The notes beneath the pieces were generated by a model. It did not search any database. It saw nothing but the letters and a program-made list of their open reading frames with translations, and was not told the DNA's origin. Positions 13,088-28,851 of a stretch of DNA of 36,337 nt are shown here, one piece after another. The position numbers and the translations under genes were made by a program. Origin of the DNA: Asaia bogorensis (GTDB lineage Bacteria; Pseudomonadota; Alphaproteobacteria; Acetobacterales; Acetobacteraceae); NCBI GenBank assembly GCA_945874805.1, contig CAMCJI010000010.1, positions 1 through 36,337 of the forward strand, in the 5' to 3' direction. Each line of letters starts with the position of its first letter. The stretch's first letter is position 1.

Positions 13088-13341
13088 GTCTTCTTTTTGT
13101 GAACAAAAAGAAGCAAAAAACTTTGTTCCATTTCGCCCGGCCTTTCCGCCTCCATCCGTGATCCTGGGCGAAGCGAAGGACCCCGGCTTGCCCTGCGCGG
13201 GATCGCGAGGCGGTCCGAGGGCTTCGCCGCCAAGCCACCCAGTGGAGTGCGACGACGGCGAAGCCATCAGATCCGATGCCGCCAAACCCACCCCTAAACG
13301 GATAAAGTTTTTTTGCTTCTTTTTGTTCACAAAAAGAAGAC
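13088..13341. repeat. Nested inverted-repeat intergenic element, copy 1
   Basis: Fills most of the 303-bp gap between the convergent bisC and G3E GTPase genes; no gene is visible in it. The left arm (13088-13126) and right arm (13302-13341) are near-perfect reverse complements over about 39 bp, differing by one A in a run and one base near the inner end. Each arm is itself a hairpin: CTTCTTTTTG/CAAAAAGAAG at 13090-13099/13104-13113 with loop TGAA, and at 13316-13325/13330-13339 with loop TTCA. An inner stem GGCTTCGCCG (13220-13229)/CGGCGAAGCC (13256-13265) has a 26-nt loop. Three more copies are at 18397, 25700 and 28592. It could be a bidirectional terminator, a MITE-like element or both. 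Confidence 0.85.
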
Positions 13342-13374
13342 TCTTCCCTTCCTGCCCCTTGCCTCGCCTACCCG

Positions 13375-14340
13375 CTAAGCGGACCGCAACACCGGGCGCG
13401 CGCGCGCAAAAGGGGAGGGGGCTGACACCTGAATCGGCAGCATCGGCGTCATCCCCGCCAGTTCCGCCAGCGCTGCGTCGCGCGCGATGATCACCAGAAA
13501 CGGCGGCCCCGGCTGCGGCGGAAAGGGTCGCGGTGCGCTGAACACCGTGCCCACCGCCTGCACCAGCATCGGCCAGTCCTGCCCCTCGACCGCCACCAGC
13601 CCCTTCACCCGCAGCAATCTCTCGCCCAGCAGTCCCGCGAGATTGTCGAGCCACACCGCCACATCGTCCCACGCCAGGGCCCCGGCCGGCCGCGCCAGCC
13701 ACGTCACCAGCCGCGGATGTGCCTGTGCCGACGGCTCATCGACGACAACGGGCGCTCCCCGCCGCCGCCCGAACACCGCCCGCAACACCGCCGCGCGGTC
13801 CGCCCCGTCGATGATCTCGGCGAGTGGATTGATCCCCGCCGCAACCCCCGCCGCCGCGCCGGGGTCAGCGAGATCGCGCCGGGTGAGCACCAGCGCCTGC
13901 GCCCCCGCCCACTGCGCCGCCGCCTCCTCGAATCCCGCCACCTCGGCCCCGCGCAGGCAATCGAACGTCGCCACCACCGATATCCGCAACGGCAGCCCCG
14001 CGAGGCTCTGCAGGCTCCGCAAGATGGGCCCGGGCTTGGACAGCCCGCTGGTTTCCAGCACGATCCGCGCCGGCGGCACATCCACGCTGGCCAGCAGGTT
14101 CTCGATGGTGGCGGAAAGCTCGCTGCCCGCGGCACAGCACACGCAGCCATTGGCGAGCATCGCCATCTGCAATCCGCCGGCCCCCTCGGCCAGGATCGCC
14201 CCGTCGAGCCCGATCTCGCCCGCTTCGTTGACGATCACCGCCGTCCCCGCCGCCTCCGGCAGCGCCAGGAAATCCCGCAGCAGCGTCGTCTTGCCGCTGC
14301 CGAGGAACCCCGTCAGTACGACGAGGTCGAGCGGCGTCAC
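13375..14340 (-). CDS. G3E family P-loop GTPase (CobW/YjiA-like metallochaperone family)
   Basis: Members handle metal delivery or metalloenzyme maturation. The 321-residue protein has Walker A GFLGSGKTT (11-19), the metal-binding CxCC motif in NGCVCC (Cys66, Cys68, Cys69) and ETSGLSKPGPI (switch II region, about 96-106). In place of the usual NKxD base-recognition motif it reads TRRD (153-156). A shorter C-terminal domain (about 235-321) follows. The start is the GTG at 14340, in a GTGA overlap with the stop of the amidohydrolase; the longer frame upstream shadows that gene. The overlap suggests the GTPase may help metallate the amidohydrolase (inference). The CobW annotation is by family only. 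Confidence 0.85.
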   Translation of the reverse strand: MTPLDLVVLTGFLGSGKTTLLRDFLALPEAAGTAVIVNEAGEIGLDGAILAEGAGGLQMAMLANGCVCCAAGSELSATIENLLASVDVPPARIVLETSGLSKPGPILRSLQSLAGLPLRISVVATFDCLRGAEVAGFEEAAAQWAGAQALVLTRRDLADPGAAAGVAAGINPLAEIIDGADRAAVLRAVFGRRRGAPVVVDEPSAQAHPRLVTWLARPAGALAWDDVAVWLDNLAGLLGERLLRVKGLVAVEGQDWPMLVQAVGTVFSAPRPFPPQPGPPFLVIIARDAALAELAGMTPMLPIQVSAPSPFARARPVLRSA

Positions 14341-15923
14341 GGCCGCGCCGACGGATCGTCCTCGTAGCTCTGCACCACCATCGCCCGCACGTCGGCCAGC
14401 AGCTCCGCCACGTCGAACACCATCCCCGCCTTGATCGTCCAGCGCAGCGCCCGGTGCCACTCCGCCTTGTTGGTGGCATCGTTCAGCCGCAGCGCCCCGG
14501 TGCCGTAGAGCAGCTTGAAGTCGGTCAGCGGATTATGGTCGTGCACCAGCAGATCGGCCCGCTTGCCCACCTCGATGCTCCCCACCTCATCGCCGATCCC
14601 CAGCAGGTCGGCACCCTGCACGGTGGCGCTGCGCAGCACCTCCAGTGGATGGAACCCCGCCTCCTGCAACAGCTCCAGCTCGCGGATGAAGCCGAACCCG
14701 AAGATCTGATAGATGAAGCCGCTGTCGCTTCCCGCGCAGACCCGGCCGCCCTTGTTCTTGTACTCGTTGATGAACTGCATCCAGACGCGGTAGTTCTGCT
14801 TCCACTCGATCTCGTTCTGCGTCGTCCAGTTCACCCAATAGCTGCCATGCCCGCCGCGCTGCGGCTGGAAATACTTCCACAGGCTGTTCCAGGCATAGTC
14901 GTGATGCCAGTCCGCCTGCCGCGCCCGCATCAGGTCGCGGTTGGCGTCATAGATGCTGAACGTCGGCACGAAGGTGAAGTCCAGCGCGAGGAACTCATCC
15001 ATCACCCGATTCCAGGTCTCGCTGCCCGGCTTGGCCGCCTGCGCAAAGGTCTGCCCGGCATAGGCAAAGCGGAAATACTCGTCGTTGTAGTCGTAATCGA
15101 GCGGATAGTTCTGCACCACCCGATCCTCGAACAGCGATTCCGGCAGACCGTAATAATGCTCGGCGGACGTCAGCCCCCACTTCGCCGAGGTCAGCGCGTT
15201 CATCCGCGTCACCGCCATCTGCGCGTGATGGCAGCCGCTGCGCAGCCCGATCTTGCGGCATTCGTCGAGTGCCGCCTCCATGATCGCCGGCGGCGCCCCG
15301 AAGAACTTGATCCCGTCCGCCCCCCGCGCCCGCACCCGCCGCAGCCACTCCCGCCCCTGCTCGGGCGTATGGATGATCTTCAGCATGTCGTTCACGGCCG
15401 GAAAATACGCGTGCGCGACGATATGCGGCGCTGCGATCTCGCCCGCCGCCGAGCGCGCCTTCTGCCGCAATGTCCAGTCGAGCCCGTTCATCGAGCCCAT
15501 CTCGCGCACGGTGGTCACCCCATGCGCCAGCCACAGCTTGTACACATAGTCCACCGACGGCACATGCCCGTTCGCCGCGTGATACGGCACGCCGGCATGC
15601 GCGTGGCAGTCGATGAAGCCGGGCGTGATCCACTTGCCGTGGCAGTCGATCTCGTGATCCCCCGCCGCCGGCCGGTTGGCCTCCTTGATCGGCCGCTTGG
15701 CAGCCGCCACCTTGCGCATCTCCACGATGCGCCCGCCTTCCACCACGATATCCACCGGCCCGATCGGCGGTGCCCCGGTGCCGTCGATCACCGTCCCGCC
15801 CCGCAGCACCAGCCGCCCGAACGGCCCGATCCCGCGATCGCGCCCCGTCGCCTCGGGCACCGGCGGCTGCCCCTGCTTCGCCCGGGTGAGCGCGAGTTCC
15901 TCGCCGGCCTGCATCTCGCTCAT
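14337..15923 (-). CDS. Metal-dependent amidohydrolase family protein
   Basis: A 528-residue amidohydrolase (imidazolonepropionase/dihydroorotase-like superfamily). The first beta-sandwich portion has LVLRGGTVIDGTGAPPIGP. The metal-binding HxH lies in PGFIDCHAHAG (His107, His109), further histidines in SGCHHAQM and SAEHYYG, and the last metal Asp probably in CAGSDSGF. The C-terminal sandwich ends with GSIEVGKRADLLVHDHNPL. The ATG at 15923 is chosen because AGAGGA precedes it by 8 nt and upstream codons have no family similarity. It starts 13 bp after the FkbM gene and overlaps the G3E GTPase by 4 bp, so the three genes form one unit. Substrate unknown. Confidence 0.88.
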   Translation of the reverse strand: MSEMQAGEELALTRAKQGQPPVPEATGRDRGIGPFGRLVLRGGTVIDGTGAPPIGPVDIVVEGGRIVEMRKVAAAKRPIKEANRPAAGDHEIDCHGKWITPGFIDCHAHAGVPYHAANGHVPSVDYVYKLWLAHGVTTVREMGSMNGLDWTLRQKARSAAGEIAAPHIVAHAYFPAVNDMLKIIHTPEQGREWLRRVRARGADGIKFFGAPPAIMEAALDECRKIGLRSGCHHAQMAVTRMNALTSAKWGLTSAEHYYGLPESLFEDRVVQNYPLDYDYNDEYFRFAYAGQTFAQAAKPGSETWNRVMDEFLALDFTFVPTFSIYDANRDLMRARQADWHHDYAWNSLWKYFQPQRGGHGSYWVNWTTQNEIEWKQNYRVWMQFINEYKNKGGRVCAGSDSGFIYQIFGFGFIRELELLQEAGFHPLEVLRSATVQGADLLGIGDEVGSIEVGKRADLLVHDHNPLTDFKLLYGTGALRLNDATNKAEWHRALRWTIKAGMVFDVAELLADVRAMVVQSYEDDPSARP

Positions 15924-15936
15924 CCCGCTTGTCCTC

Positions 15937-17148
15937 TCAGCGATTGGTGAAGGTGGAGACCGGTCGCAGCTTGGCCCGCACCGTGTCGAGATACCCGGCC
16001 CCCCGCTCGGCCGCGAGCCGGTCGATGAAGCGCTGATGCAGGAAGAACGCATCCACCCCCAGCGCCCCAATGCAGGTGTAGCCCTTCGGCTCCAGGAACG
16101 CCCGGTGCTCGGTCCAGGGCGTCGCGTTGTCCTCGATGGTGAACATGTCGATGCTCACCTGGTCGAAATCGAGCGAGCGCAGGATCGTCATCTCCGCCCC
16201 TTCGACATCCAGGCTGAAGTAATCGACGTGCGAGATTCCCGCCTCGGCGAACACCTCCATCGTCGGGCGCACCTTGACCCAGCGCACCCTGTAGTCCGGC
16301 TTCGGCTCCACCCCCTGCGAGTGCTGCTCCAGATGCACCACCGCCGCATGCTCGAAATACCGCAAGAGCCCGGAGCGGTCGCCGGCATCGAGATACAGCA
16401 GTTCCATCGCCTCAGTGCCAAGCGCACCGTTGACGCAGCGCGCGCCCTGCCGCTTGTGGATGATCTCCGGGAAGTAGCGCGGCTGCATCTCCACCAGAAT
16501 CCCCGTCCACCCCAGCGCCTTCTCAAAGAAGAAGCTGTTGGACAGCGCGACGCCCTCATGCGCCCCCACCTCGAAGAAGGTGCCGCCGCGATGGCTCATA
16601 AGATTGTCGTAGATGAACTGATCCTGCCCCCACTGCGAGCGCAGATACCCCGTCAGCGACCCGCCAGGTGCGATCGCATCGCTGGTCGTGTGGATGGCCA
16701 CATCGAGCCGCGCGAACGCATACTGGTCCGCCCCCCGCCCGTCATACCGCCCGCCTTCGCCCCGGCTGGTGCCGACGGAGACGGTCTCATGCGAGCTGTA
16801 GTACACCACCACCACATCGAACCAGCCATCCCCCGCCGGGGTGACGGTGATGCTCTCGCTGATCCCGCGCCCGCGCACGCCGCCATCCGCCGCGATCCGA
16901 CACACATCGATGCCGCCCCAGTGGTTGACGTAAAACTCCGTGTCGCACCCCGCCGCCGGCCGCATCCGGATCACCAGCCGCAACCGCCGGTTGGCGAACA
17001 GCGGATCGCTGATGCGCATCAGGTGGTAATCCATCCCCGGCGCATCGGCATAGATCAGCCCGTCCGCCTCCAGGCGCAGGCGCGCGGAATGGACGGGCTT
17101 CCACACATGCAACGGCAGGTGGGCGGCTTCGGGTGGTGTCATGTTCAT
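15937..17148 (-). CDS. FkbM family methyltransferase with an extra N-terminal domain
   Basis: FkbM-type enzymes transfer methyl groups from SAM, often to sugar or polyketide hydroxyls. The methyltransferase domain fills about residues 190-400, with SAM motif I as FFEVGAHEGVALSNS, the loop GILVEMQPRYF, and the family marker DYFSLDVEGAEMTILRSL. The first 180 residues are a beta-rich domain (YVNHWGGIDVCRIAADGG; WFDVVVVYYSSHETV) that I do not recognise; it resembles a carbohydrate-binding jelly roll only in general look. ATG 17148 gives 403 aa; an in-frame TTG at 17178 and ATG at 17142 are alternatives, none with a good ribosome binding site. First gene of a unit with the amidohydrolase and GTPase. 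Confidence 0.83.
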   Translation of the reverse strand: MNMTPPEAAHLPLHVWKPVHSARLRLEADGLIYADAPGMDYHLMRISDPLFANRRLRLVIRMRPAAGCDTEFYVNHWGGIDVCRIAADGGVRGRGISESITVTPAGDGWFDVVVVYYSSHETVSVGTSRGEGGRYDGRGADQYAFARLDVAIHTTSDAIAPGGSLTGYLRSQWGQDQFIYDNLMSHRGGTFFEVGAHEGVALSNSFFFEKALGWTGILVEMQPRYFPEIIHKRQGARCVNGALGTEAMELLYLDAGDRSGLLRYFEHAAVVHLEQHSQGVEPKPDYRVRWVKVRPTMEVFAEAGISHVDYFSLDVEGAEMTILRSLDFDQVSIDMFTIEDNATPWTEHRAFLEPKGYTCIGALGVDAFFLHQRFIDRLAAERGAGYLDTVRAKLRPVSTFTNR

Positions 17149-17270
17149 GCGCGCGGCTTCATGCTTTGTTGATGGCAAGCGGCATACATCGCCGCGGTGG
17201 GAGAAGGATTAACGTCTCCCCGGCACGCCCGCAACGCGGCCCCGGCCGGCCGGCGTCACGTCCGCGTGTC

Positions 17271-17299
17271 TTGGCCCCCCCGGCCCGGGCTGATATACC
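17271..17299 (+). promoter_or_regulatory. Candidate sigma-70-type promoter
   Basis: TTGGCC at 17271-17276 and TATACC at 17294-17299 are separated by 17 bp. They lie 58 bp upstream of the ATG at 17357, in the 208-bp gap between two divergent genes. This is the only locally AT-rich hexamer in a very GC-rich stretch. It is a pattern match only. Confidence 0.35.
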
Positions 17300-17356
17300 C
17301 CGCCGGCGGCCGATCAATTGTCTCGCCGCAACGATCTGCAGGAGCGCCGCCCGCCT

Positions 17357-18385
17357 ATGCCCGTTGACATCCCCGCCTATCACGCTGCCGTCGCGGGCTA
17401 TGACTGGGGCAGGGCGCTCACCCCCGCCCGCACCCTCGCAGACGAGGTCACCGGCCACGACCGCATCGACAAGCTGCGTGAACTGTCCAACATCGAACGC
17501 CATCTCGGCGACTGGGATGCCGCCCGCGCCTCGATGCAGGCCGCCTGGCACCACGCGCAGTCCCAGGGCCTGGCCATGCACGGCGGCCAGGTGATGCATT
17601 TCGCCGCCGCCGCCGACGTCCTCGGCCTCAACGACCTCACCGCCGCGGCGCTCACCCATCTGCCAGCGCATGTCGAAACGCCTTGGAACACCGCGATCAT
17701 GCAGCGCCGGGTCGATGCCGCCCAGGCCACCCGCATCCGCCTGCGCGGCAAACAGGTCCGCATCCTGCCGCTCGGCCAGGAATGCCTGCCCTTCAACATC
17801 CTGATGAAATGGGGCTTCTTCGAATTCGGCGTGGACGGCCCCTTCACCGCAGGCGTCTTCCCGCGCGACTGCGTGCAACTGGCGCTGGAGGACAAGTTCG
17901 CCGCCTTCCTCGACCCCGAAGCCTACCGCACCATGCGCACCCCGCAGGGCCTCGATGCCCCGCTGATCCAGCGCTACGGCTGCCTGCTCAACCACGAATG
18001 CGGCCCGTATTACTGTGCCGACGGCCTGGCCGAGACCGTCCGCCTCTACACCACCCGCACCCAGGCCGCCCAGGCCGCGCTGACCGGCACGGCGCAGATA
18101 CTGTTCATGATCGAACGCACCCGCTTCACCGACCTGCCGGCCCTGCTGGAAACCCTCTTCCGCCTCTACGCCGACCGCCACCCCCGCGTCTTCGTCCTCG
18201 ACGACGGCAACTCCGAACCCGACGAAACCCCGATCGACGACCCCCGCGTCACCATCCTCCCAGCCCCCCGCCCGTCGGAGGCCTACGTCTGGCACCGCCA
18301 GGACCACTACAGCACCGAAGAAGGCTACGCCTACGAAGCCCCCAGGGCCGCCGCCCTCGAAAAACTCGTCGCGGAGCTGGGCTGA
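17357..18385 (+). CDS. DUF1796-like putative papain-like cysteine peptidase
   Basis: A 342-residue protein. Residues about 25-110 look like helical TPR-type repeats (ELSNIERHLGDWDAARASM; HFAAAADVLGLNDLTAAAL). The second part resembles DUF1796 proteins, described as putative papain-like cysteine peptidases: it opens with RILPLGQECLPFNILMK, where Cys143 is the natural nucleophile candidate, then GPFTAGVFPRD, NHECGPYY, a core strand ILFMIERTRFTDL and VFVLDDGNSEP. I start at ATG 17357, with GGAG 12 nt upstream, a long spacing; a TTG at 17318 is in frame. Neighbours include FkbM and GT9 enzymes, so a link to surface polysaccharide is conceivable. Family call is from recognition only. Confidence 0.6.
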   Translation: MPVDIPAYHAAVAGYDWGRALTPARTLADEVTGHDRIDKLRELSNIERHLGDWDAARASMQAAWHHAQSQGLAMHGGQVMHFAAAADVLGLNDLTAAALTHLPAHVETPWNTAIMQRRVDAAQATRIRLRGKQVRILPLGQECLPFNILMKWGFFEFGVDGPFTAGVFPRDCVQLALEDKFAAFLDPEAYRTMRTPQGLDAPLIQRYGCLLNHECGPYYCADGLAETVRLYTTRTQAAQAALTGTAQILFMIERTRFTDLPALLETLFRLYADRHPRVFVLDDGNSEPDETPIDDPRVTILPAPRPSEAYVWHRQDHYSTEEGYAYEAPRAAALEKLVAELG

Positions 18386-18396
18386 GGAGAAGGAAG

Positions 18397-18603
18397 CATC
18401 TACTTTTTTGAAAAAAAGAAGCAAAAAACTTCTGTCCCTGGCTTCGCCGCCCAGCCGCATAGGCGGTTGAAAAACCGGCGAAGCCAAAAAATCCCCCGCC
18501 GCAAACCCCCACCCCGCGGTGCAACCCGGCACCGAACGGACAAAGTTTTTTTGCTTCTTTCCTGCGCGGCGTCTTCGCCGTCGCAAGTTCACAAAAAGAA
18601 GAC
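18397..18603. repeat. Nested inverted-repeat intergenic element, copy 2 (with loop insertion)
   Basis: Sits between the convergent genes ending at 18385 and 18631. The left arm hairpin reads CTACTTTTTTG then AAAAAAAGAAG (18400-18421), one mismatch from the other copies. The inner stem is GGCTTCGCCG (18440-18449)/CGGCGAAGCC (18476-18485), again with a 26-nt loop. In the right arm the hairpin is split: between CTTCTTT (18554-18560) and TTCACAAAAAGAAG (18588-18601) lie 27 extra bases, which contain their own hairpin CGGCG-TCTT-CGCCG (18567-18580). Behind the stop on each strand it would be positioned as a terminator. No gene is visible in this gap. Confidence 0.8.
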
Positions 18604-18630
18604 TCTTGCCTTCCTGCCCTCGCCTCCGCC

Positions 18631-19044
18631 CTACCCCCCAAAAGCCCGCGCAAAATCCTCATCCACCGGAATCCGGTAAGCCGCCACCATCCGGTTGCTT
18701 TCCACCGCCAGCCCGACGATGGCGATCAGCTCCGCCATCTGTGCTTCGGTGACGCCTTTCTTGCGCGCCTGGTAGCTGTGCGAGGCCACGCAGTAGTCGC
18801 ATTGCTGCGACATCGACACGGCGAGATAGATCATCTCCTTCGTCACGTTGTCGATGGCACCGGGCGCCATCACCTTCCGCGCCCGTTCCCAGCTGCTGCG
18901 CAGGTTCGCCGGATGGATCGCCTGTGCCTTCCACGCATTGTTCACATGCCGCGGATCGATGCCGCGCACCCGCGCGATATCTTCATAAACCGCCCGCACC
19001 TCGGCGCAGGCGTCGTCGTATTCCACCAGTGTCACAGCGCTCAT
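18631..19044 (-). CDS. Carboxymuconolactone decarboxylase/AhpD-like protein
   Basis: A 137-residue, all-helical protein of the AhpD/CMD superfamily. The diagnostic motif is SQQCDYCVASHS, with redox Cys82 and Cys85 and His89, and an upstream Glu70 in TKEMIYLAVS. In AhpD these residues reduce hydroperoxides with help of a dithiol partner; many relatives have unknown substrates. It stands alone on the minus strand, with the methyltransferase gene 61 bp upstream in the same direction and repeat copy 2 behind it. Its stop codon (TAG) falls 28 bp beyond the element core. Confidence 0.87.
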   Translation of the reverse strand: MSAVTLVEYDDACAEVRAVYEDIARVRGIDPRHVNNAWKAQAIHPANLRSSWERARKVMAPGAIDNVTKEMIYLAVSMSQQCDYCVASHSYQARKKGVTEAQMAELIAIVGLAVESNRMVAAYRIPVDEDFARAFGG

Positions 19045-19105
19045 CGCGTCCTCCCCGGATCAACCCGCCGAGGCTGGCACGTGCGCCGCGCGCCGGCCAG
19101 AGCCG

Positions 19106-20185
19106 CTAGTCCGGCCCTTTGCGCATCAGGAAGGCGTTGGAAATCCACAGCCCGTGATGATCGATCGCCGCATCCGGCTGCACTTCCAGCGGATGCGTGT
19201 CGTGCCGCCGCCCCGCCTGCAGAACCATGCGCTGCGGCAGGAAATGCATCTCCATCGTCGCCTCCTTCGCCAGCGTCTCGAAATACCGCGCCACCGAGAA
19301 GCTGTAGCCCAGCGCGTAGGTCGGCACCTGGAAGAACGCGACGCCCCCCGGCCGCAGCCCGGCAAACGCCCGGTCGAGAATATCCAGCATGATCGGCGGC
19401 GGATTATGCTGCAGCACGATCAGCGAGAAGAACACATCCACCCCCGCCAGCGCCGCCAGGTCCCCTGGCCCGCGCACCAGCACGTAGTCCACGTTGGTGA
19501 TCCCCTGGGCGGTGAGGCGGGCGCGGGCGGCATCCAGATGCGGCTGAGAGATGTCGAACGCGATCACCCGGCGGAAGCGCCGGGCCAGCACATGGGTCAC
19601 CCGGCCGACGCCACAGCCATATTCGGCACAGACCATATCTTCGCTGAGCGCCACCTGGTTGCGCGCCGCCCAGGCCCACATCCGCCCGGCATGCGCCTCT
19701 CCGGTGCGGTAGAACGCATCGAGCGTTTCCGCCCGGTTCATCTTCGCCGCCCGCCAGTCCTCATGCACCATGACCGACCAGTAGGGATCGGTCTCGCCAA
19801 AGCCCGACCAGACCTCGCCGATATGCGCCCAGATCGCATCCCGCTCGGCATCGCTGTAGCTGGTCTGCACCTCCATCGCCGGCGCGCCGTCCAGCGGGAA
19901 CATCGAATCCCCCGGCCGGAACTTGCGCAGAAACTCATCAGACCGGTGGAACTCCCCCAGCAGCGTCTCCAGGCTCATGCCGCCGCGCAGTGCGGCCACA
20001 TGCGCCTGCAACCCCTCCACATCCGGCTCGCGATGCAGCAGCGCGCGATACAGCGCGGTGACGAGCTGGTGCTGCAGGAACGGCGAACGAGCGTAGGAGC
20101 GCGCCAGCAGCCCCATCACACCGTCACGCAAAATCGCCTTGACCGGCCAGTTCGGATAGTTGTCCTGTACCATACCGCCAGCCAT
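19106..20185 (-). CDS. DUF4214 domain-class I SAM methyltransferase fusion
   Basis: A 359-residue protein. Residues about 38-90 match the DUF4214 pattern (LVTALYRALLHREPDVEGL, then GEFHRSDEFLRKF), a small helical domain related to phycobilisome-linker repeats and common in secreted or glycan-related proteins. Residues about 160-330 form a class I methyltransferase: CAEYGCGVGRVTHVL (186-200), VIAFDISQPHLDAAR, and VDVFFSLIVLQHNPPP for the acceptor side. There is no signal peptide. ATG 20185 is preceded by GAGGA with a 7-nt gap; a second ATG lies at 20173. The open frame extends much further upstream but without similarity. Substrate unknown; modification of a glycan or surface molecule is only a guess. 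Confidence 0.82.
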   Translation of the reverse strand: MAGGMVQDNYPNWPVKAILRDGVMGLLARSYARSPFLQHQLVTALYRALLHREPDVEGLQAHVAALRGGMSLETLLGEFHRSDEFLRKFRPGDSMFPLDGAPAMEVQTSYSDAERDAIWAHIGEVWSGFGETDPYWSVMVHEDWRAAKMNRAETLDAFYRTGEAHAGRMWAWAARNQVALSEDMVCAEYGCGVGRVTHVLARRFRRVIAFDISQPHLDAARARLTAQGITNVDYVLVRGPGDLAALAGVDVFFSLIVLQHNPPPIMLDILDRAFAGLRPGGVAFFQVPTYALGYSFSVARYFETLAKEATMEMHFLPQRMVLQAGRRHDTHPLEVQPDAAIDHHGLWISNAFLMRKGPD

Positions 20186-20299
20186 CCTCGAGTCCTCTGT
20201 CCTAATTCTGCCAGTTCCGGCCCCCCCGATCAAACCGCCGCCCTTGGCACGGCGCCGCCGCTGTCGCACCATGCGCGCATCAGCACAGACGAGGCGCAC

Positions 20300-21493: not shown

Positions 21494-21504
21494 CCGGCGG
21501 CAAG

Positions 21505-22539
21505 GTGGCGCACCAGGACGAGACCATCGGGCCGGGCGGCGGCCCGCAACTGCTGCACAGCCTCACGGTCACCGCACCGGGGCAGAAGCCGCAGCAGGTC
21601 AAGCTCGCTGGCACTCTGACCATCGGCCGCGTCCCGCCGGCCGGTCTCGTGCTGCCTTACCCCGAGGTCTCCCGCCGCCATGCCGAGATCGTGCTGGCCG
21701 GCGGCGCGGCGGTGATGAGCGATCTCGGCTCCACCAACGGCGTCTGGGTGGATGGCGCGCAGATCGGCGGCCCCACCGTGCTCGCTCCCGGCGCGCAGAT
21801 CCGCATCGGCCATGTCGTGCTGGTCTACGAGGCGGAGCCGGAAACCGCGACGATGATGTCCGCCCCGCAAGCCTCCGCCGCCCCCGCCCGGCCCGCCGGC
21901 CGGCTGGACGACCCGCTGCTGCACGCCGCCTGGCTGGCCGCGGCAGGCGGGCAGGGCAGGGAGGTGATGCACGCCGCCACGCTCGGCGGCCGGCTGTTCG
22001 CCGGCTTCGCCCTGCATGTCGCCGGGCCGGACCGGGCAGCGGCGGTGCAGGCCGCCAGCATCGCCCAGGCCCTGCGCGAGGGCCTGCCAGGGGCAGACCC
22101 CATGCACCCGGCCGAGGCGGTCTCGCGCCTGAACGACATCCTCGCCGGCAAGGGCCAGGATGGCCTCGTCCCCGCGCTCTGGGCCTGGTCCTACGACCCG
22201 GCGGCGCGGGTGCTGGAATACTGCGCCGCCGGCCACCCCCCCGCCTTCCTCATCGCCCCGGACGGGCAGACGGTGGTGGCGCTGGACAAGCGCAACCCCT
22301 CGCCGGGCCTGATGCCGGATTTCGCCTTCAGCCACGCCAGGCTGAAGCTGCGGCCGGGCTGCGCGCTCGCCCTCTTCGGCGCCGATGTCTTCGACCGCCC
22401 CGGCGCCGGCGGCGCCCCCTGGGGCCTCGCCGACGCCCAGCCTTTGCTGCGCGCGGCCGAAGGCAGCCCGCAGCAGGACGCCGGGCGCCTGCAACAGGCC
22501 CTTGGCGACGCCTCCGTCGCGGTGCTGCATTTCCCCTGA
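21505..22539 (+). CDS. FHA domain fused to a degenerate SpoIIE/PP2C-type phosphatase domain
   Basis: The 344-residue protein begins at a GTG (21505). An FHA phosphopeptide-binding domain spans about 16-110 with all key residues: GR (41-42), SRRH (56-59) and STNG (76-79). From about 130 to the end the fold resembles SpoIIE serine phosphatases: an AVSRLNDILAG helix, YCAAGHPPAFLIAPDGQ (the AGHpPp motif), and an RPGCALALFGADVFD final strand. The metal-binding positions are lost: the GGDFYD motif is absent, DVSGHG reads HVAGPD, and TDG reads GAD. It is probably inactive and may act as a binding or scaffold module for the downstream kinase pair, which is inference. A 66-bp gap precedes the kinase gene. 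Confidence 0.78.
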   Translation: MAHQDETIGPGGGPQLLHSLTVTAPGQKPQQVKLAGTLTIGRVPPAGLVLPYPEVSRRHAEIVLAGGAAVMSDLGSTNGVWVDGAQIGGPTVLAPGAQIRIGHVVLVYEAEPETATMMSAPQASAAPARPAGRLDDPLLHAAWLAAAGGQGREVMHAATLGGRLFAGFALHVAGPDRAAAVQAASIAQALREGLPGADPMHPAEAVSRLNDILAGKGQDGLVPALWAWSYDPAARVLEYCAAGHPPAFLIAPDGQTVVALDKRNPSPGLMPDFAFSHARLKLRPGCALALFGADVFDRPGAGGAPWGLADAQPLLRAAEGSPQQDAGRLQQALGDASVAVLHFP

Positions 22540-22605
22540 GCCGGCGCGGCCTGTTGCATCGCGCCCCAAGCTCACGGCACTCTGTTCGTCACCCCTTGTG
22601 AACGA

Positions 22606-24543
22606 ATGATGCCCACCCACCTGCCACCATCGCCATCCGCCCACGCCGGCGCCGGCCTTCTCGGCCGGCCCTGGAGCCTGCGCACCCGGCTGATCCTGCT
22701 GGTCCTCGCCTGCATCCTGCCAATCATTCTCGTCGGTGGCCTCTTCATCGCCGGCATGGCCCAGCACCTGCTCGACATGCACGCCGAGCGGATGGACCTG
22801 ATGCTGGAGGACGCCAACCATCGCCTGCACGATGCCGGCGCCCAGCCCGGCGGCCCGGCCATCCCGCCCGCCCGCCTGCTCGCCGCCCTGGCCGAGGCCT
22901 CGGCGCCCGAGCGGGGCGGCTTCGTCCTGACCGGCCCGGACGGCACGGTGATCGCCACCACCCTGCCGGCCCCGCTCGCGGTCCTGCCCGCCCTCCTGCG
23001 CGGCGCCGCACCCGCCCCCGCGGTGCATCCGGTCACCGCGCCGGACGGGCACCGCTACTCCGTCCTGCTCGCCCGCTCCAGCGCCGCCGCCCCGCTGAGC
23101 CTCTCCATCTGGGAACCGGCGGATACCCGCGCCGCCGCCTGGAAGCAGCCGGTGCTGCGCTACATCGTCCTGATGCTGCTGGCCCTTCTCGTCGCGCTGG
23201 CCGCCGCCGCGATCATGGCCATCCGGCTCGTCCGCCCGCTGACCGGGCTGACCGAACACGCCCTCGCCGTCGCCCGCGGCCAGGACGGCAACGCCGTGCC
23301 GGTCCCCACCAGCCGCGTCACGGAATTCGAAACCCTCCGCGTCGCCCTGGCCGACGCCGCCCTCGCTTTGCGCCGCCGTGCCGCCACCGAGCGCCGCGCC
23401 ATGCACGATGCGCAGGACGGACAGATACTCCTCGCCTCCGTCATCGCCGCCTCGGCGGACGGCATCACCGTCAAGGCGCTCGATGGCCGCTACCTGCTGG
23501 CCAACCGCGCCGCCGCCGGCATCATGGGCCTGTCCGAGCCGCATGCCGCCCTCGTCGGCCGCACCGCCCGCGAATTCCTCGACCCGCAGACGGCCGCGCG
23601 CATCGAACGCCTCGACCAGGAGGTGATCGCCACCGGCGCCACCCGCAGCAACGAAAGCCACTGGCCGCAGGCCGCCCCCGACGGCCGCCACGTCCTCGTC
23701 CTCAAATCCCCCTGGCGCGACACCGCCGGCACCACCACCGGCGTCGTCACCGTCATGCGCGACGTCACCCGCCAACGCCAGGACGAGGCCCGCCTGCACG
23801 CAGCCCAAAGCGAACTCGCCCGCGCCTCGCGCCTCTCCGCCATGGGCGTGATGGCCTCGGGTCTCGCCCACGACCTCAACCAGCCGCTCGCCGCCGCCGC
23901 GAACTTCCTTGGGGCCGCCCGCCGCCTGCTCGCCCGCGCCCCCGCCGCCTCGCCCGCCGCCCCCCCCGCAGCGATAGATGCGCTGGATGAGGCGGTGGCC
24001 CAGGTCCTGCGCGCCGGCGGCATCGTCAACGCCCTGCGCGGCTTCCTGCAAGGCGGCCATGTCAGCCTCGCCCCCACCGACCTCGCCGCCCTGGTGCAGG
24101 AAGCCTGCGCCATCACCCGCGCCGACGGCACGCTCGGCTCCGCCCGCCTCACCATCGACCTGCCCCCCGACCTGCCCATCGTCATGGCCGACCGCACCCA
24201 GTTGCAACAGGTCATCGTCAACCTCATCCGCAACGCCGCCGAGGCCCTGGCCACCCACACCGGCGCCCCCGGCGAAATCCGCATCCGCGCCACCCCCCAC
24301 TCCACCGGCGTCGGCATCGCGGTGGCCGATACCGGCCCCGGCCTGGACGCCGCGATCGCCGATCGCCTGTTCCAGCCCTTCGTCAGCACCAAGCCGGACG
24401 GGCTGGGAATCGGCCTTGCAATCTGCCACGCCATCGTCGACGCCCATGGCGGCCGCCTCTCCGGCGCCACCGCCCCCACCGGCGGCGCCGTCTTCACCAT
24501 CGACCTGCCGCTACCCTCCAACTCCCCGGATACCGCTGCATGA
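22606..24543 (+). CDS. Membrane sensor histidine kinase (HAMP-PAS-HisKA-HATPase, FixL-like output)
   Basis: A 645-residue inner-membrane kinase. TM1 is about 27-49 and TM2 about 184-206; they enclose a periplasmic sensor of about 130 residues. A HAMP linker (207-258, LVRPLTGLTEHA) and a PAS domain (272-390, ADGITVKALDGRYLLANRAA) follow. The phospho-acceptor is His422 in LAHDLNQPLAA, the H-box type of FixL/DctB-like kinases. The ATPase domain has the N-box NLIRNAAEAL (Asn543), G1 DTGPG (575-579) and G2 GLGIGLAIC. Its TGA overlaps ATG 24540 of the regulator. Start is ATG 22606; a second ATG follows at 22609 and no strong ribosome binding site is seen. The stimulus is unknown. Confidence 0.92.
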   Translation: MMPTHLPPSPSAHAGAGLLGRPWSLRTRLILLVLACILPIILVGGLFIAGMAQHLLDMHAERMDLMLEDANHRLHDAGAQPGGPAIPPARLLAALAEASAPERGGFVLTGPDGTVIATTLPAPLAVLPALLRGAAPAPAVHPVTAPDGHRYSVLLARSSAAAPLSLSIWEPADTRAAAWKQPVLRYIVLMLLALLVALAAAAIMAIRLVRPLTGLTEHALAVARGQDGNAVPVPTSRVTEFETLRVALADAALALRRRAATERRAMHDAQDGQILLASVIAASADGITVKALDGRYLLANRAAAGIMGLSEPHAALVGRTAREFLDPQTAARIERLDQEVIATGATRSNESHWPQAAPDGRHVLVLKSPWRDTAGTTTGVVTVMRDVTRQRQDEARLHAAQSELARASRLSAMGVMASGLAHDLNQPLAAAANFLGAARRLLARAPAASPAAPPAAIDALDEAVAQVLRAGGIVNALRGFLQGGHVSLAPTDLAALVQEACAITRADGTLGSARLTIDLPPDLPIVMADRTQLQQVIVNLIRNAAEALATHTGAPGEIRIRATPHSTGVGIAVADTGPGLDAAIADRLFQPFVSTKPDGLGIGLAICHAIVDAHGGRLSGATAPTGGAVFTIDLPLPSNSPDTAA

Positions 24544-25185
24544 GCCCCCCCCGCCCAACCCACCATCCACATCGTTGACGACGACGCCGCCGTCCGCCGC
24601 TCCCTCACCTTGCTGCTGGTCTCGCACGGCATGTCGGTCTGCGAGCATGTCTCCGGCGACGCCCTCCTCGCCGCCGAGCCGCTCGCCCCCGGCTGCATCA
24701 TCCTCGACCTGCGCATGCCCGGCCGCGACGGCCTGGCCGTGCTGGGCGAACTGCGCGCCCGCGGCACAACCATGCCGGTGCTGATCGTCTCCGGCCACGC
24801 CGATGTCCGCCAGGCCGTCATCGCCATGAAGTCCGGCGCGGTGGACGTGATCGAGAAGCCCTACGCCGAACACGCCATCATCGGCGCCGTCGAATCCGCC
24901 CTGCAAACCCCCGCCGAGCCCGGATCACGAGAACGTGACCGCGCCGCCGAGGCCCGTCTCGCCGTGCTGACCCCCCGCGAAACCGAGGTCCTGCGCCACA
25001 TGGTCGCCGGCCTGCCGAACAAGGCGATCGCCCTTGAACTCGGCATCAGCCCGCGCACCGTGGAGATCCACCGCGCCAACGTGATGGACAAGCTTGCCTG
25101 TCGCAGCCTTGCAGAAACCGTAAGGCTCGCCTTGCAGGCGGGCCTCGGCGAGCCCACCCCGCCAGCCACCGCCGGCGGCCGCTGA
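24540..25185 (+). CDS. FixJ/LuxR-family response regulator, reading frame broken in a C8 tract
   Basis: From 24562 the frame encodes a normal receiver: TIHIVDDDAAVRRSL, phospho-Asp in ILDLRMPG, VSGHAD, Lys in EKPY. A LuxR-type helix-turn-helix follows (LTPRETEVLRHMVAGLPNKAIA, residues cut here; then SPRTVEIHRANVMDKL). This is the natural partner of the kinase upstream. Yet the only sensible start, ATG 24540 in an ATGA overlap with the kinase stop, is in another frame. The eight C bases at 24545-24552 put it out by one; seven C bases would give M-S-P-P-A-Q-P-T-I-H-I-V-D. Without the shift, the first start is TTG 24610, which removes strand 1 and the acidic pocket. Sequencing error, mutation or slippage are all possible. 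Confidence 0.75.
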
Positions 25186-25329
25186 CCCCCGCGCAGCCGG
25201 CGCCTCCCCCCTGCGCGCGCAACCGCCGGTATTCAGTCGTTACGTAGCATCCCTCACTGGTTGCCGCAGCGTGCTTGTTGCACACCGTCATGGATTCGAA
25301 TGCACGCAACGGATGCAGCAGGAGAGCCG

Positions 25330-25674
25330 ATGGACCATCACCCCAATCCCAATTTCGACTCCCCCGCGGTCACCGACCTCAGGTCGAGCCAACCCGACCC
25401 CGAACGCGACTTCGCCGACGCCCTGCTCGCGGCCGTCGCCGCCATGGCCGCCCGCAGCCACCGCCGCCAGGCCGACCTCTTCGTCGCCGCCCGCCGCTTC
25501 GGCCTGACCGCCCCGCCCGACCACATTCGCCAAACCCTGCGCCAACTCCACGCCGACGGCTGCGTCGAACGCGTCGTCCCCCTGGCCGACGGCGGCATCC
25601 TCCTCTCCATCACCGGCCGCGGCCTCGAACGCCTGAGCCACAGCAGCCTGCGCCACCTCGCAGAAGGCTTCTGA
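25330..25674 (+). CDS. Small winged-helix-like hypothetical protein
   Basis: A 114-residue protein with an excellent start: GGAG at 25321-25324, 5 nt before the ATG. The first 35 residues are polar and probably disordered. From about 40 on, the pattern is alpha-alpha-alpha-beta-beta: RRQADLFVAARRFGL, HIRQTLRQLHADGCVERVV, then ADGGILLSITGRGLERL. That layout resembles winged-helix DNA-binding domains of the MarR/PadR type, but no family is clearly recognised. It sits 144 bp after the response regulator, so it may have its own promoter. Its stop is 26 bp before the core of repeat copy 3. Confidence 0.65.
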   Translation: MDHHPNPNFDSPAVTDLRSSQPDPERDFADALLAAVAAMAARSHRRQADLFVAARRFGLTAPPDHIRQTLRQLHADGCVERVVPLADGGILLSITGRGLERLSHSSLRHLAEGF

Positions 25675-25699
25675 CCGCAGGAAGAAAGTGAAGGCAAGC

Positions 25700-25887
25700 G
25701 TCTTCTTTTTTGAAAAAAAGAAGCAAAAAACTTTTGCCCATTGCTCCGCTCAACAACCGCAAAACCGCGAAAAAGACGGCGAAGCCAAAAAACCCACAAA
25801 TCCCAAAACCCAAAACCCAACCCCGAGAGCCCACCCCAACCCAGCGAACAAAGTTTTTTTGCTTCTTTTTGTTCACAAAAAGAAGAA
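25700..25887. repeat. Nested inverted-repeat intergenic element, copy 3
   Basis: Shortest copy (188-bp core), between the convergent genes ending at 25674 and 25891. The left arm carries CTTCTTTTTTG plus AAAAAAAGAAG; the right arm carries CTTCTTTTTG (25862-25871), TTCA, CAAAAAGAAG (25876-25885). So the two arm types (GA loop and TTCA loop) are mixed in one copy. The right half of the inner stem, CGGCGAAGCC, is intact at 25777-25786, but the expected left half at 25741-25750 has decayed. The region between is rich in the pattern CAAAACCCAAAACCC. The glycosyltransferase stop TAA lies in GGGAAAGTAAG at its right border. Confidence 0.8.
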
Positions 25888-25890
25888 TCC

Positions 25891-26775
25891 TTACTTTCCC
25901 ACCACCGCCCCCAAAACCCGCCCCACGCTCAGCCCCGCCATCGTCCCGTCGGGGCTCACCACCGCCGCCGCCTGCGGCCCTGCCGGTGCGTAGTCGGCCA
26001 CCGACGTCGGTCCGAACAGCCCCAGCGTCCGCGCCCCTGCCGCCGCTGCCAGGTGCATCGGCCCGGAATCGTTGCCCACGAACAGGTCGCAGCGCTCCAG
26101 GCAGGCGATCGCCTCGGGGAGCGACAGCCCGTACAGCGCCACCGCCCCCGGCACCGCCCCCCGCACCGCCTCGGCCAACCCATGCTCACGCGCCCCCGGC
26201 CCGGCGAGCACGAACACCGCCGCACCCGGCAGCGGCCCCGCCCGCAACCCCGCCGCCAGTTCCACGAACCGCGCCGCCGGCCAGATCTTGTCAGATGACG
26301 CGGCAGTCGGTGCCAGCACCACGGCCTTGCGCCCCGCCGGCATCCGCGCCGCCGCTGCACGCCGCTCGGCCTCCCCGGTCCAGACGATCGGCAGCAGCGG
26401 CGGCACCAGCCCCAGAATCGCCCCGTGCTGCGCCGTCTTGTGCCCCGCCGCCCCCCGTCGCCGCAGCGCCAGCCGCCCGCGCCACAAAAACCAGCCGAGC
26501 CCCGAGCCGCGCACGTCCACCACCAGATCCCAGCGCGTCCCCACCACCGCCAGCCACAGCCGCAGCCAATGCAGGATGCTGAGCGCCTTCAGCCGATGCT
26601 TGCGCATCACGATCACCCGCCGCAGCCCCGGCATATGCTGGAACAACCCCTCGGAGATCGGCCCGCAGGCGATCGTGTACTCCGCCCCCGGATGACGCGC
26701 CTGCAAGTCCCGCAGCAGCACGCTGGAAAGCACGGTATCGCCAAGCGGTCCGGGGGCCACGAATAGAATGCGCAT
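25891..26775 (-). CDS. Glycosyltransferase family 9 (heptosyltransferase-like)
   Basis: GT9 enzymes add heptose or other sugars to the lipopolysaccharide core in the cytoplasm. The 294-residue protein starts with MRILFVAPGPLGDTVL, the N-terminal Rossmann strand and the GD motif of the family. It continues with WDLVVDVRGSGLGW and ends with the family's best marker, FVGNDSGPMHLAAAAG (232-247), followed by LGLFGPTS. It starts at ATG 26775; the frame upstream has no similarity. The gene is divergent from asnB, with 71 bp between starts. Its stop (VVGK then TAA) is embedded in the border of repeat copy 3. Which sugar is transferred cannot be said. Confidence 0.9.
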   Translation of the reverse strand: MRILFVAPGPLGDTVLSSVLLRDLQARHPGAEYTIACGPISEGLFQHMPGLRRVIVMRKHRLKALSILHWLRLWLAVVGTRWDLVVDVRGSGLGWFLWRGRLALRRRGAAGHKTAQHGAILGLVPPLLPIVWTGEAERRAAAARMPAGRKAVVLAPTAASSDKIWPAARFVELAAGLRAGPLPGAAVFVLAGPGAREHGLAEAVRGAVPGAVALYGLSLPEAIACLERCDLFVGNDSGPMHLAAAAGARTLGLFGPTSVADYAPAGPQAAAVVSPDGTMAGLSVGRVLGAVVGK

Positions 26776-26796
26776 CCCCCGCCGATAGCAGCCTTT

Positions 26797-26826
26797 TTGC
26801 CTGCCCGCACCAGGGCGTGGTAGCGA
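26797..26826 (+). promoter_or_regulatory. Candidate promoter of asnB
   Basis: TTGCCT (26797-26802) and TAGCGA (26821-26826) are 18 bp apart. They end 20 bp before the asnB ATG, in the 71-bp gap to the divergent GT9 gene. The -10 match is poor, so this is tentative. Confidence 0.25.
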
Positions 26827-26846
26827 CCCCATAAGGAGACAGCGCG

Positions 26847-28583
26847 ATGTGCGGCATTGCCGGGATGATGATGCGCGACGCCAGCCCCCCGCCGGCCGCG
26901 ACGCTCGACAGGTTGCTCGCGGCCCTGGCCCATCGCGGCCCGGACGGCGACGGCCGCCTCGTGCGCGCCAACACCGCTTTGCTGCACAACCGCCTGGCCA
27001 TCGTCGACCTCGTCACCGGCGACCAGCCGCTCTACGCCCCGTCAGGCGCGGCCCTCGTCTGCAACGGCGAGATCTACAACAACGACGAACTCCGCGCCGC
27101 CATGCCCGCCACCCCCTTCCGCACGCGGTCAGACTGCGAGCCGGCGGTCTTCCTCTACGAGCAGCACGGCCTCGCCTTCGCCGAACAGCTGCGCGGCATG
27201 TATGCCATCGCCATCCACGACCCCGCCGCCGGCCGCCTCGTCCTCGCCCGCGACCCCTTCGGCATCAAGCCGCTCTACTACACCCATACCGACACCGCGT
27301 TCGCCTTCGCCTCCGAACCCCAGGCGCTCCGCCGCGCCGGCTTCGGCACCCAAGGCGAGGTGCCGCAACCCCGCGCCGAACTCCTCCAACTCAAATTCAC
27401 CACCGGCGCCGAGACCATCTTCCCCGGCATCTTCCGCGTCCTCCCCGGCGAGACCCTGGTCGTCGAAGCCGGCCAGATCACCGCCCGCCACCGCCGCCAC
27501 GCCCTCCCGGAAGGCCCCCCCGGCCCCCCGCAATCCCGCACCGCCCTCGACCGCGTCCTGCTCGACAGCGTCACCGTCCACCTGCGCGCGGACGTCCCCT
27601 ACGGCCTCTTCCTCTCCGGCGGCATCGACTCGGCAGCCGTCCTCGCGCTGATGACCCGCGCCGCCGGCCGCATCCAGGCCCTCACCTGCGGCTGGGACGG
27701 CGTGGGCGTGGACGAAACCGCCGAAGCCATCCGCCTCGCCCGCGCCCAGGGGGCCGACGTCGAGCGCATATCGATGGGTGCCGACAGCTTCTGGGCGCTC
27801 GCCCCGCGCATCGCCGCCGCCATCGACGACCCCACCGCGGACGCCGCCGTCCTCCCCACCTGGCTCCTCGGCCAGGCCGCCCGCGCCGGCGGCCTGAAAG
27901 TCACCTTGTGCGGGGAGGGGGCAGACGAGCTGTTCGGCGGCTATACCCGCTACCGCAAGCGCCGCGCCCCCTGGCGCTGGCTCTCCCGCAAACCCCGCAG
28001 CAAAGGCGTCCTCGGCGACCCGCCCGGCCTCACCGGCTGGCGCGACGGCCTCGCCCGCGCCGAAGCCGCAAACCCGCACGGCCGCACCCCGCTGCAACAG
28101 GCCCAGGCGGCGGACATCGCCGAATGGCTCCCCAACGACCTGCTGACCAAACTCGACCGCTGCCTGATGGCGCACGGCGTCGAAGGCCGCACCCCCTTCC
28201 TCGACCCCGAAGTCGCCAAATTCGCCTTCCCCCTGCCAGACGCCCAGAAAGCCGGGCTGCGCTTCGGCAAGGTCCTCCTGCGCGACTGGCTCGCCCACAG
28301 CTTCCCCGAAGCCGGCGCCTACGCCCGCAAAAAAGGCTTCAAACCCCCGGTCGGCCAGTGGATGCAGGCCCGCGCCACAACCCTCGCCCCCCTGGTCGCG
28401 GCCCAACCCGGCATCGCCGCCTGCATCGATGCCGCTACCGTCACCGCCAGCTTCGAAGGCGCCGGCCAAAACTCACAACCTGCCTGGAGCCTGCTGTTCT
28501 ACGCCCTCTGGCACAGCCACCACATCCTCGGCCTGCCCAGCGACGGCAGCATCGCCGATGTCCTCAGTCAGGCCAGGAAGTGA
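26847..28583 (+). CDS. asnB: Asparagine synthetase (glutamine-hydrolysing)
   Basis: Makes asparagine from aspartate, ATP and glutamine, or amidates another carboxylate in specialised members. The 578-residue protein begins with catalytic Cys2 in MCGIAGMMM. The N-terminal glutaminase domain has AHRGPDGDG, NRLAIVDL, CNGEIYN and ARDPFGIKPLYY. The synthetase domain has the PP-loop FLSGGIDSAAVL (about 253-264), TLCGEGADELFGGY and DLLTKLDRCLMAHGVEGRTPFLD. AAGGAG precedes the ATG well. The location beside a GT9 gene would also suit the AsnB-like enzymes of polysaccharide clusters, but sequence alone does not decide. The stop lies in AGGAAGTGAAGG, the border of repeat copy 4. Confidence 0.93.
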   Translation: MCGIAGMMMRDASPPPAATLDRLLAALAHRGPDGDGRLVRANTALLHNRLAIVDLVTGDQPLYAPSGAALVCNGEIYNNDELRAAMPATPFRTRSDCEPAVFLYEQHGLAFAEQLRGMYAIAIHDPAAGRLVLARDPFGIKPLYYTHTDTAFAFASEPQALRRAGFGTQGEVPQPRAELLQLKFTTGAETIFPGIFRVLPGETLVVEAGQITARHRRHALPEGPPGPPQSRTALDRVLLDSVTVHLRADVPYGLFLSGGIDSAAVLALMTRAAGRIQALTCGWDGVGVDETAEAIRLARAQGADVERISMGADSFWALAPRIAAAIDDPTADAAVLPTWLLGQAARAGGLKVTLCGEGADELFGGYTRYRKRRAPWRWLSRKPRSKGVLGDPPGLTGWRDGLARAEAANPHGRTPLQQAQAADIAEWLPNDLLTKLDRCLMAHGVEGRTPFLDPEVAKFAFPLPDAQKAGLRFGKVLLRDWLAHSFPEAGAYARKKGFKPPVGQWMQARATTLAPLVAAQPGIAACIDAATVTASFEGAGQNSQPAWSLLFYALWHSHHILGLPSDGSIADVLSQARK

Positions 28584-28591
28584 AGGCAAGC

Positions 28592-28851
28592 GCGTTCTTT
28601 TTTGAAAAAAAGAACCAAAAAACTTTCATTCGTTTTTGGTAGGGCGGAAAAGCTCAGCGCCTTCCGCCACTAACGGCATCAAACAGGCGTATTGTCCTTG
28701 GCATGAGCGGTCTCCTGGCTTCGCCGCCAGGCCGCAAAGACCGTGGAAGGCCCGGCGAAGCCCAAAACCCCCCCTCACCAGCGCCCACTCCGCGAGCCAC
28801 CCCCACCCAAGTCCAAAAAGTTTTTTGCTTCTTTTTTTCAAAAAAGAAGAC
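28592..28851. repeat. Nested inverted-repeat intergenic element, copy 4 (compensatory stem change)
   Basis: Occupies most of the 310 bp between asnB and the gene at 28894; no gene is visible there. The left hairpin reads GTTCTTTTTT, G, AAAAAAAGAAC (28594-28615): compared with other copies the outer C-G pair has become G-C, so both bases changed and pairing is kept. The right hairpin is CTTCTTTTTT (28828-28837)/AAAAAAGAAG (28840-28849). The inner stem GGCTTCGCCG (28717-28726)/CGGCGAAGCC (28753-28762) again has a 26-nt loop. About 70 bases (28636-28705) between left arm and inner stem are unique to this copy. It is the only copy followed by a gene in the same direction. Confidence 0.85.

Follow-up and report, generated by a model that had tools for sequence, protein, structure and literature searches.

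Comparison with Described Repeat Families

Short palindromic units present in many intergenic copies, often as inverted pairs, are known from the REP (repetitive extragenic palindromic) and BIME (bacterial interspersed mosaic element) families with GTAG or CGTC tags; mixed-unit pairs are frequent among them, and they have no coding capacity (PMC3733652). We analyzed a repeat of similar form that is found in four copies in a 36,337-nucleotide stretch of Asaia bogorensis DNA (contig CAMCJI010000010.1; the whole stretch is hereafter called the window). Its unit consists of an A/T-rich hairpin arm of 9–11 bp and a tail, C-AAAAA(R)A-CTTT, and the units occur in twos, their tails pointing at each other across a centre of ~30–200 nt that is usually GC-rich and self-complementary. 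In kind, the element is BIME/MITE-like, and a role as a transcription terminator is probable, as judged from its sequence.

Unlike REP/BIME, the element has no constant GTAG or CGTC tag beside the stem; it also differs in its tail CAAAAARACTTT, its A/T stems, and the folding GC-rich centre that lies between the paired arms. In alignments A3 and A4, the stem was flanked by variable bases (GCGT, GAGT, GAAT, AAGT, GCAG, and others). CGTC repeats are listed as missing in Acetobacteraceae in the 2013 survey (PMC3733652). A strict CGTC-type pattern had no match in the part of the A. bogorensis genome sampled here. Some centres, for example at window positions 13157–13186 and with GCGTCATTGCGAGCCCTTGCGAAAGCAATCC in the related genome G001 (L228, L230), contain stretches that we take to resemble CGTC-type REP.

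Families of terminal inverted repeats linked to TIRYT tyrosine transposases share with the element inverted repeats, partly self-complementary tracts, and a moderate copy number (PMC3733652); unlike in these families, no tyrosine transposase was seen between or beside the arms in the sample, the genome not having been searched for one. Miniature inverted-repeat transposable elements (MITEs) such as ERIC, RUP, and NEMIS, as defined in the same survey, are 70–300 bp long, have terminal inverted repeats, carry no genes, and lie in transcribed spacers (PMC3733652). The element has the same length range, terminal inverted repeats, lack of coding capacity, and position in transcribed spacers; unlike in MITEs, the terminal repeats are covarying hairpins, and neither a parent insertion sequence nor, at junctions too diverged to define one, a target duplication was found. 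The paired uptake signals of Neisseria and Pasteurellaceae also form dispersed inverted pairs, enriched between convergent genes and with A and T tails on the two sides, and as terminators they are the closest parallel in function (PMC1852404); the element differs from them in its arms of ~45 nt, which are nearly always paired and never inside genes in the sample, and in its variable centre.

The initial annotation of the window recognized no named family, and none was found: Rfam gave no matches in the window and none up to an E-value of 1 for copy 4. The letters of the arm were not present in any paper searched, the literature searched on repeats in Acetobacteraceae contained no description, and the words hairpin, palindrom, and repeat were absent from the available sections of an RNA-seq paper on G. 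oxydans (PMC5756330). An uptake sequence, CRISPR, a riboswitch, or an Rfam RNA had no support as identifications (no Rfam matches; none of 45 elements inside genes; CRISPR dismissed by form only).

Copy Number and Distribution

The A. bogorensis genome (G000; 4.53 Mb in 401 contigs, 91% complete) was scanned with a 20-base arm pattern, AAAGTTTTTTNGCTTCTTTTT, allowing up to two mismatches. The pattern matched 379 times (186 forward, 193 reverse) and its reversed version never, which excludes chance; the copies of the element number well over a hundred, so the expectation that the four copies are not alone was borne out. Of the 106 arms in a sample of 829 kb (~0.83 Mb), comprising the window and 40 further stretches of this genome, 90 formed 45 paired elements and 16 stood alone. 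Many intergenic palindromic copies, single and in inverted pairs, are thus present, as in REP/BIME.

Centre lengths in the sample clustered at 107–110, 155–162, and ~200 nt. Most centres were asymmetrical; in short ones, a GGCTTCGCC...GGCGAAGCC hairpin lies closer to one of the two arms. The arms (similarity 0.80, ungapped, n = 99) were more alike than the centres. At six places, the loop of an arm carried a GC-rich insertion; the similarity of centres was 0.69 among five carriers of this variant, 0.65 among 23 others, and 0.56 for shuffled letters. Since the centres of carriers are hardly more alike than average, the shared variant shows copying or arm exchange but not recent copies of whole elements. 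A hairpin repeat, GTAGGGCGGAA...TTCCGCC, was seen at two places in the sample (window 28639–28668; L044 11908), both within an element centre. Three similar small open reading frames (ORFs) with the start MN..NPFTGLKGALAG, as read by eye, are each followed by a single arm (L049 17107–17589; L171 ~6050–6640 and L175 ~1240–1727, both on the minus strand); the one scanned had no Pfam match. The one wide arm pair, in L049, encloses an ORF without a Pfam match.

Paired arms are also present in relatives. The pattern scan, extended to 100 genomes with the same mismatch limit, matched 29: A. bogorensis itself; 22 of the 59 further genomes of the family, in many of which the matches numbered in the tens to hundreds; and 6 of 40 genomes outside the family with 1–3 matches each, where the reversed control was similar. 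A covariance model of the arm, R1, built from 58 arms, matched 65 of 200 Acetobacteraceae genomes and, in a draw of 142 genomes of the class, A. bogorensis alone. The element is confined to Acetobacteraceae and patchy within the family. Named carriers among the 80 loci listed were Gluconacetobacter, Acidiphilium, Roseomonas, Rhodovarius, Pseudoroseomonas, Novacetimonas, and Neokomagataea, together with many metagenome-assembled genomes (MAGs); a few single matches in unrelated MAGs were also among these loci. Numbers of R1 matches, scored up to a maximum of 30 or 43 per genome, swing within genera: at least 30 in G042 and G213 versus 2 in G162, at least 30 in G056 versus 2 in G220, and at least 30 in G136 and G192 versus 3 in G235. 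Searches of plasmids and phages gave two real plasmid matches; the remaining short matches were taken as chance. Tandem elements ~167–270 nt apart were observed at four places within 40 kb of G192 (L307 8403/8570 and 10678/10851; L308 11474/11650 and 14293/14562).

Placement at Gene Ends

Genes in the window and the sample were called with a codon-model finder, which limits the placement counts. None of the 45 paired elements lay wholly inside a gene; 16 were between convergent, 27 between codirectional, and 2 between divergent genes. Among 276 element-free spacers of at least 60 nt in the same sample, 14 were convergent, 169 codirectional, and 93 divergent (Fisher p = 6e-8 for convergent enrichment, 1e-5 for divergent depletion). 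Between the upstream stop codon and the next start, 25 of the 27 codirectional elements lay closer to the stop.

The same placement behind genes was found in other genera. Convergent, codirectional, and divergent spacers held 7, 6, and 0 of the 13 elements in G042 and 3, 7, and 2 of the 13 in G192, where the remaining one was at an edge; the four in G056 comprised 2 convergent, 1 codirectional, and 1 at an edge. Stop codon and hairpin start were separated by a median of 5 nt in G042 (20 distances) and 9 nt in G056 (6 distances). In the two plasmid copies, annotated in RefSeq, the match begins 6 and 4 nt past the stop codon, and one of them occupies a whole convergent spacer. The initial annotation had reported copies directly behind genes, mostly convergent ones, and had named scattering inside genes as evidence to the contrary; a position behind genes, with an excess between convergent ones, also holds beyond the window, and no sampled copy lay inside a gene.

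Structure of the Arms and Centres

Arms were located by one half of the stem and the tail only, and seven loci from other bacteria (single A/T-rich matches) were excluded before counting. Agreement of the other half at 8 or 9 positions out of 9 was found for 238 of 242 arms of relatives and 94 of 99 arms of A. bogorensis. The stem types included CTTC/GAAG, GTTC/GAAC, CTCC/GGAG, CTGC/GCAG, and GTCC/GGAC. Of 341 arms, 135 with other loop lengths were excluded; in the remaining 206, whose loops have the standard length, 811 of 824 stem-base cells were paired; after the 3' halves were re-dealt among arms, the mean was 750 and the maximum 760. In alignment A4, 97.9% of the cells were paired and 61 were changed on both sides, the loop-closing pair being G-C, U-A, or C-G and the base pair C-G or G-C. 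The covariation score of A4, in which related copies are counted several times, was 0.286; shuffled alignments gave 0.091, none of 500 reaching the observed value, and slid ones gave no more than 0.067. Further pair types were not above shuffles (8 versus 8.6 in A4), which counts against arm covariation. Because the stems are nearly always palindromic and change jointly on both sides, the hairpin within the arm is a kept structure, and we take it to be real and maintained, as RNA, DNA, or both.

Among the named relatives, 58 of 64 pairs had different stem types or one unclassified arm; 6 were equal, versus 28.5 expected at random pairing, a count that one old inherited unequal pair would also give. 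The trend was the same, and weaker, in G001 (3 of 16 equal, 4.1 expected) and in five other genomes (5 of 19, 9.4 expected). Unlike in relatives, 42 of the 45 pairs in the A. bogorensis sample had equal stem types. Unequal arms may be either selected or inherited. A long stem between left and right arm was rejected as a selected structure on the 6 equal pairs and on the covariation within arms, although such a stem is frequent in minimum-energy folds of complete elements (47 of 95). A first terminator formed by the arm and the outer purine-rich flank was also considered and dropped: GTTC arms, read by eye, retain GGAAG flanks, so that flank and stem do not change together.

Centres varied in length from 29 to 355 nt overall, and from 29 to 92 nt at the named loci of relatives. 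They fold more stably than shuffled sequences on both strands: in 96 elements of relatives, the mean fold z was −2.9 and −3.2 on the two strands (192 control fragments, −0.1), and in the 45 elements of A. bogorensis −2.2 and −2.3 (90 control fragments, −0.4). Pairing between the centre ends was evaluated against letter shuffles and mixed-genome sets; a within-genome swap control was discarded because the elements had not been turned to one orientation, so that an opposite copy gives a perfect complement. It reached −13.5 versus −8.2 kcal/mol for shuffles in the named set and −13.1 versus −6.2 kcal/mol in G042, also exceeded shuffles in G001 and the mixed set, and was weakly above them in A. 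bogorensis (−11.0 versus −9.2 kcal/mol). The arm hairpin was retained in 90 of 95 transcripts cut after the first U tract.

Gain and Loss at Shared Sites

Presence and absence could be compared between G042 and G162, two genomes of one genus that are ~80% identical. Six elements of G042 (four in L303, two in L310) were absent from G162, both flanks being collinear at four of the six sites; G213, of the same genus, has all four L303 elements. At L303:2995–3115, the spacer of G162 contains a different GC hairpin behind the same gene. At L303:10272–10412, the same gene is followed in G162 by a textbook terminator, and 1.35 kb of other DNA is present. At L310:2140–2275, the alignment leaves a gap of ~15 nt in G162 where G042 has ~180 nt. 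At L310:17544, a gene of G042 ends inside the element, the arm hairpin supplying its stop codon, and the ortholog in G162 stops on its own sequence nearby. Gain in one line and loss in the other are not separable in these comparisons. In four orthologous copies, arms were 88%, centres 83%, and flanks 83% identical, a mild extra conservation. Spread through the genome, suggested by the initial annotation, is accompanied by presence and absence at shared sites, and spread by copying appears well supported.

The Four Copies of the Window

The four copies had been placed at 13088–13341, 18397–18603, 25700–25887, and 28592–28851, as inverted A/T-rich arms around a GC-rich interior, each arm being a hairpin in itself. 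Direct reading agreed with these positions, and the arms were the longest inverted repeats of the window in an unguided search (57 nt and 84% complementary in copy 1; 49 nt and 86% in copy 4). The arm reads TCTTCTTTTT-GTGAAC-AAAAAGAAG-C-AAAAAA(A)-CTTT or TCTTCTTTTTT-GA-AAAAAAGAAG-C-AAAAAA-CTTT; the two arms oppose each other with their CTTT ends pointing inward. The stem of 9–11 bp is perfect in copies 1, 3, and 4. The interiors of copies 1, 2, and 4 have the GGCTTCGCC...GGCGAAGCC hairpin in common, given here without strand; left arms and tails are on the plus strand and right ones on the minus strand, as read from the sequence.

In copy 1, the left arm hairpin with the loop GTGAAC (13090–13113, also seen in alignments) is followed by the tail C-AAAAAA-CTTT (13114–13124), the interior hairpin (13220–13265), the right tail, reading AAAG-T7-G on the plus strand (13304–13315), and the right arm hairpin (13316–13339; 70.8 bits with model R1). 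Copy 2 consists of a left arm hairpin with one stem mismatch, CTAC/GAAG (18400–18421), the interior hairpin (18440–18485), the right tail (18542–18553), and a right arm (18554–18601) with a GC-rich insertion of ~24 nt in the loop, the variant seen at six places in the sample. Copy 3 comprises the left arm hairpin (25702–25723) and tail (25724–25734) and the right tail (25850–25861) and arm hairpin (25862–25885). In copy 4, the left arm hairpin (28594–28615) has a GTTC/GAAC stem in place of CTTC/GAAG, altered on both sides; the left tail (28616–28626), interior hairpin (28717–28762), right tail (28817–28827), and right arm hairpin (28828–28849) follow.

Gene prediction placed copies 1–3 in convergent spacers, whereas both genes next to copy 4 are on the plus strand, in agreement with the earlier description. 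Pfam names of the neighbours were molybdopterin oxidoreductase, CobW, carboxymuconolactone decarboxylase, heptosyltransferase, and asparagine synthase. No empty orthologous site was readable in relatives for these copies because the neighbouring genes differ there; at the site of copy 1, the gene runs into the downstream ORF in G001 and G055, and one arm is present in G033. Elsewhere in the window, 7851–9019 and 34821–35950 are related regions with long direct repeats (D2, D3, D9), perhaps paralogous transporter ATPase genes.

Proposed Function and Alternatives

We propose, with a probability of about 0.58, that the element is a non-coding, dispersing pair of palindromic Acetobacteraceae repeats that acts as a two-way intrinsic terminator and is copied in trans. 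Polymerase leaving a gene would transcribe the first arm and its A tract; the centre would then fold, and the enzyme would meet the U-rich tract of the second arm, AAAG-UUUUUU-GCUUC-UUUUUU, and halt there. By symmetry, the same stop would operate from the other side, which would suit convergent genes. As the element carries no gene, copying must come from elsewhere and would be performed by an enzyme supplied there, with a REP- or MITE-type transposase as the obvious candidate. Two-way termination is probably the best explanation of the placement, A/T tracts, and folding. Of the view put forward in the initial annotation, a structured two-way terminator that has spread, the structure, intergenic position, copy number, and spread stand; the termination itself is a reading of the sequence and meets some contrary results.

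Several results weigh against this proposal. A strict terminator test (stem of at least 6 pairs with at least 3 GC, ending no more than 8 nt before a U tract) was passed by 39 and 44 of the 96 elements of relatives on the two strands, versus a mean of 31 and a maximum of 37 in shuffles (20 shuffles, one strand), a slight excess, and by 16 and 20 of the 45 of A. bogorensis (shuffles: mean 14.3, maximum 19). A better exit arm would be expected in codirectional elements, since only one direction is needed there; among 27 of them, the exit arm was better kept in 7 and the entry arm in 13. Single arms in codirectional spacers showed the opposite lean (8 exit, 3 entry), too few to count. In G192, the hairpin starts further from the stop codon than in G042 and G056 (median 93 nt, 13 distances), and centre-end pairing was no better than with shuffled letters (−10.4 versus −10.0 kcal/mol). 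At one site in G213, a terminator hairpin and T6 tract already follow the gene ahead of the element. As to copying, target-site duplications were not definable at the shared sites, the junctions being too diverged, and none was found; no parent transposon was found; and no transposase, of RAYT type or other, was seen in the stretches examined, among them the ORF of the wide pair in L049, the genome as a whole not having been searched.

An alternative is a selfish repeat, similar to REP/BIME or MITEs, that has no part in termination; its arms would be sites needed by the copying enzyme, and its copies would survive only behind genes, insertions into genes or promoters being lost. Arms conserved around a centre that varies in length and sequence, the swing in copy number between G042 or G213 and G162, the gains or losses at shared sites, and the direction test, which gives no sign of terminator selection, all fit such a repeat. 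We nevertheless consider it unlikely, because alone it does not account for the median stop distance of 5 nt in G042, for elements being in excess in convergent spacers relative to divergent ones, or for the folding of centres on either strand. The position directly behind stop codons and very stable folds (z −8.3 and −5.1) would also agree with an element of mRNA 3' ends, where stable hairpins keep 3' exonucleases off the upstream mRNA or serve as substrates of a double-strand RNase, and termination occurs elsewhere; this is improbable, as two-fold symmetry is unneeded for 3'-end protection and termination accounts better for the convergent enrichment. A DNA-level signal that happens to pair, either an uptake sequence or a site for a nucleoid or replication protein, is very improbable: the arms are near-perfect DNA palindromes, and paired uptake sequences can double as terminators (PMC1852404), but the copies are long, mostly paired, and absent from genes, and the arm stems change jointly instead of keeping one fixed motif.

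Returning to two-way termination, a wider and more tentative form of the proposal is possible, in which the elements would be self-spreading two-way terminators across the family: mobile cassettes that land at stop codons and replace native gene ends lineage by lineage, with two different end hairpins so that each arm folds on itself instead of on the other. If this is right, one mobile repeat would be the source of a large share of the gene ends in numerous Acetobacteraceae, and a dispersing element would define transcription boundaries in a family of industrial use. Natural two-way terminators would then be at hand, together with a testable case of a moving terminator and a system in which to ask why palindrome pairs keep unequal arms.

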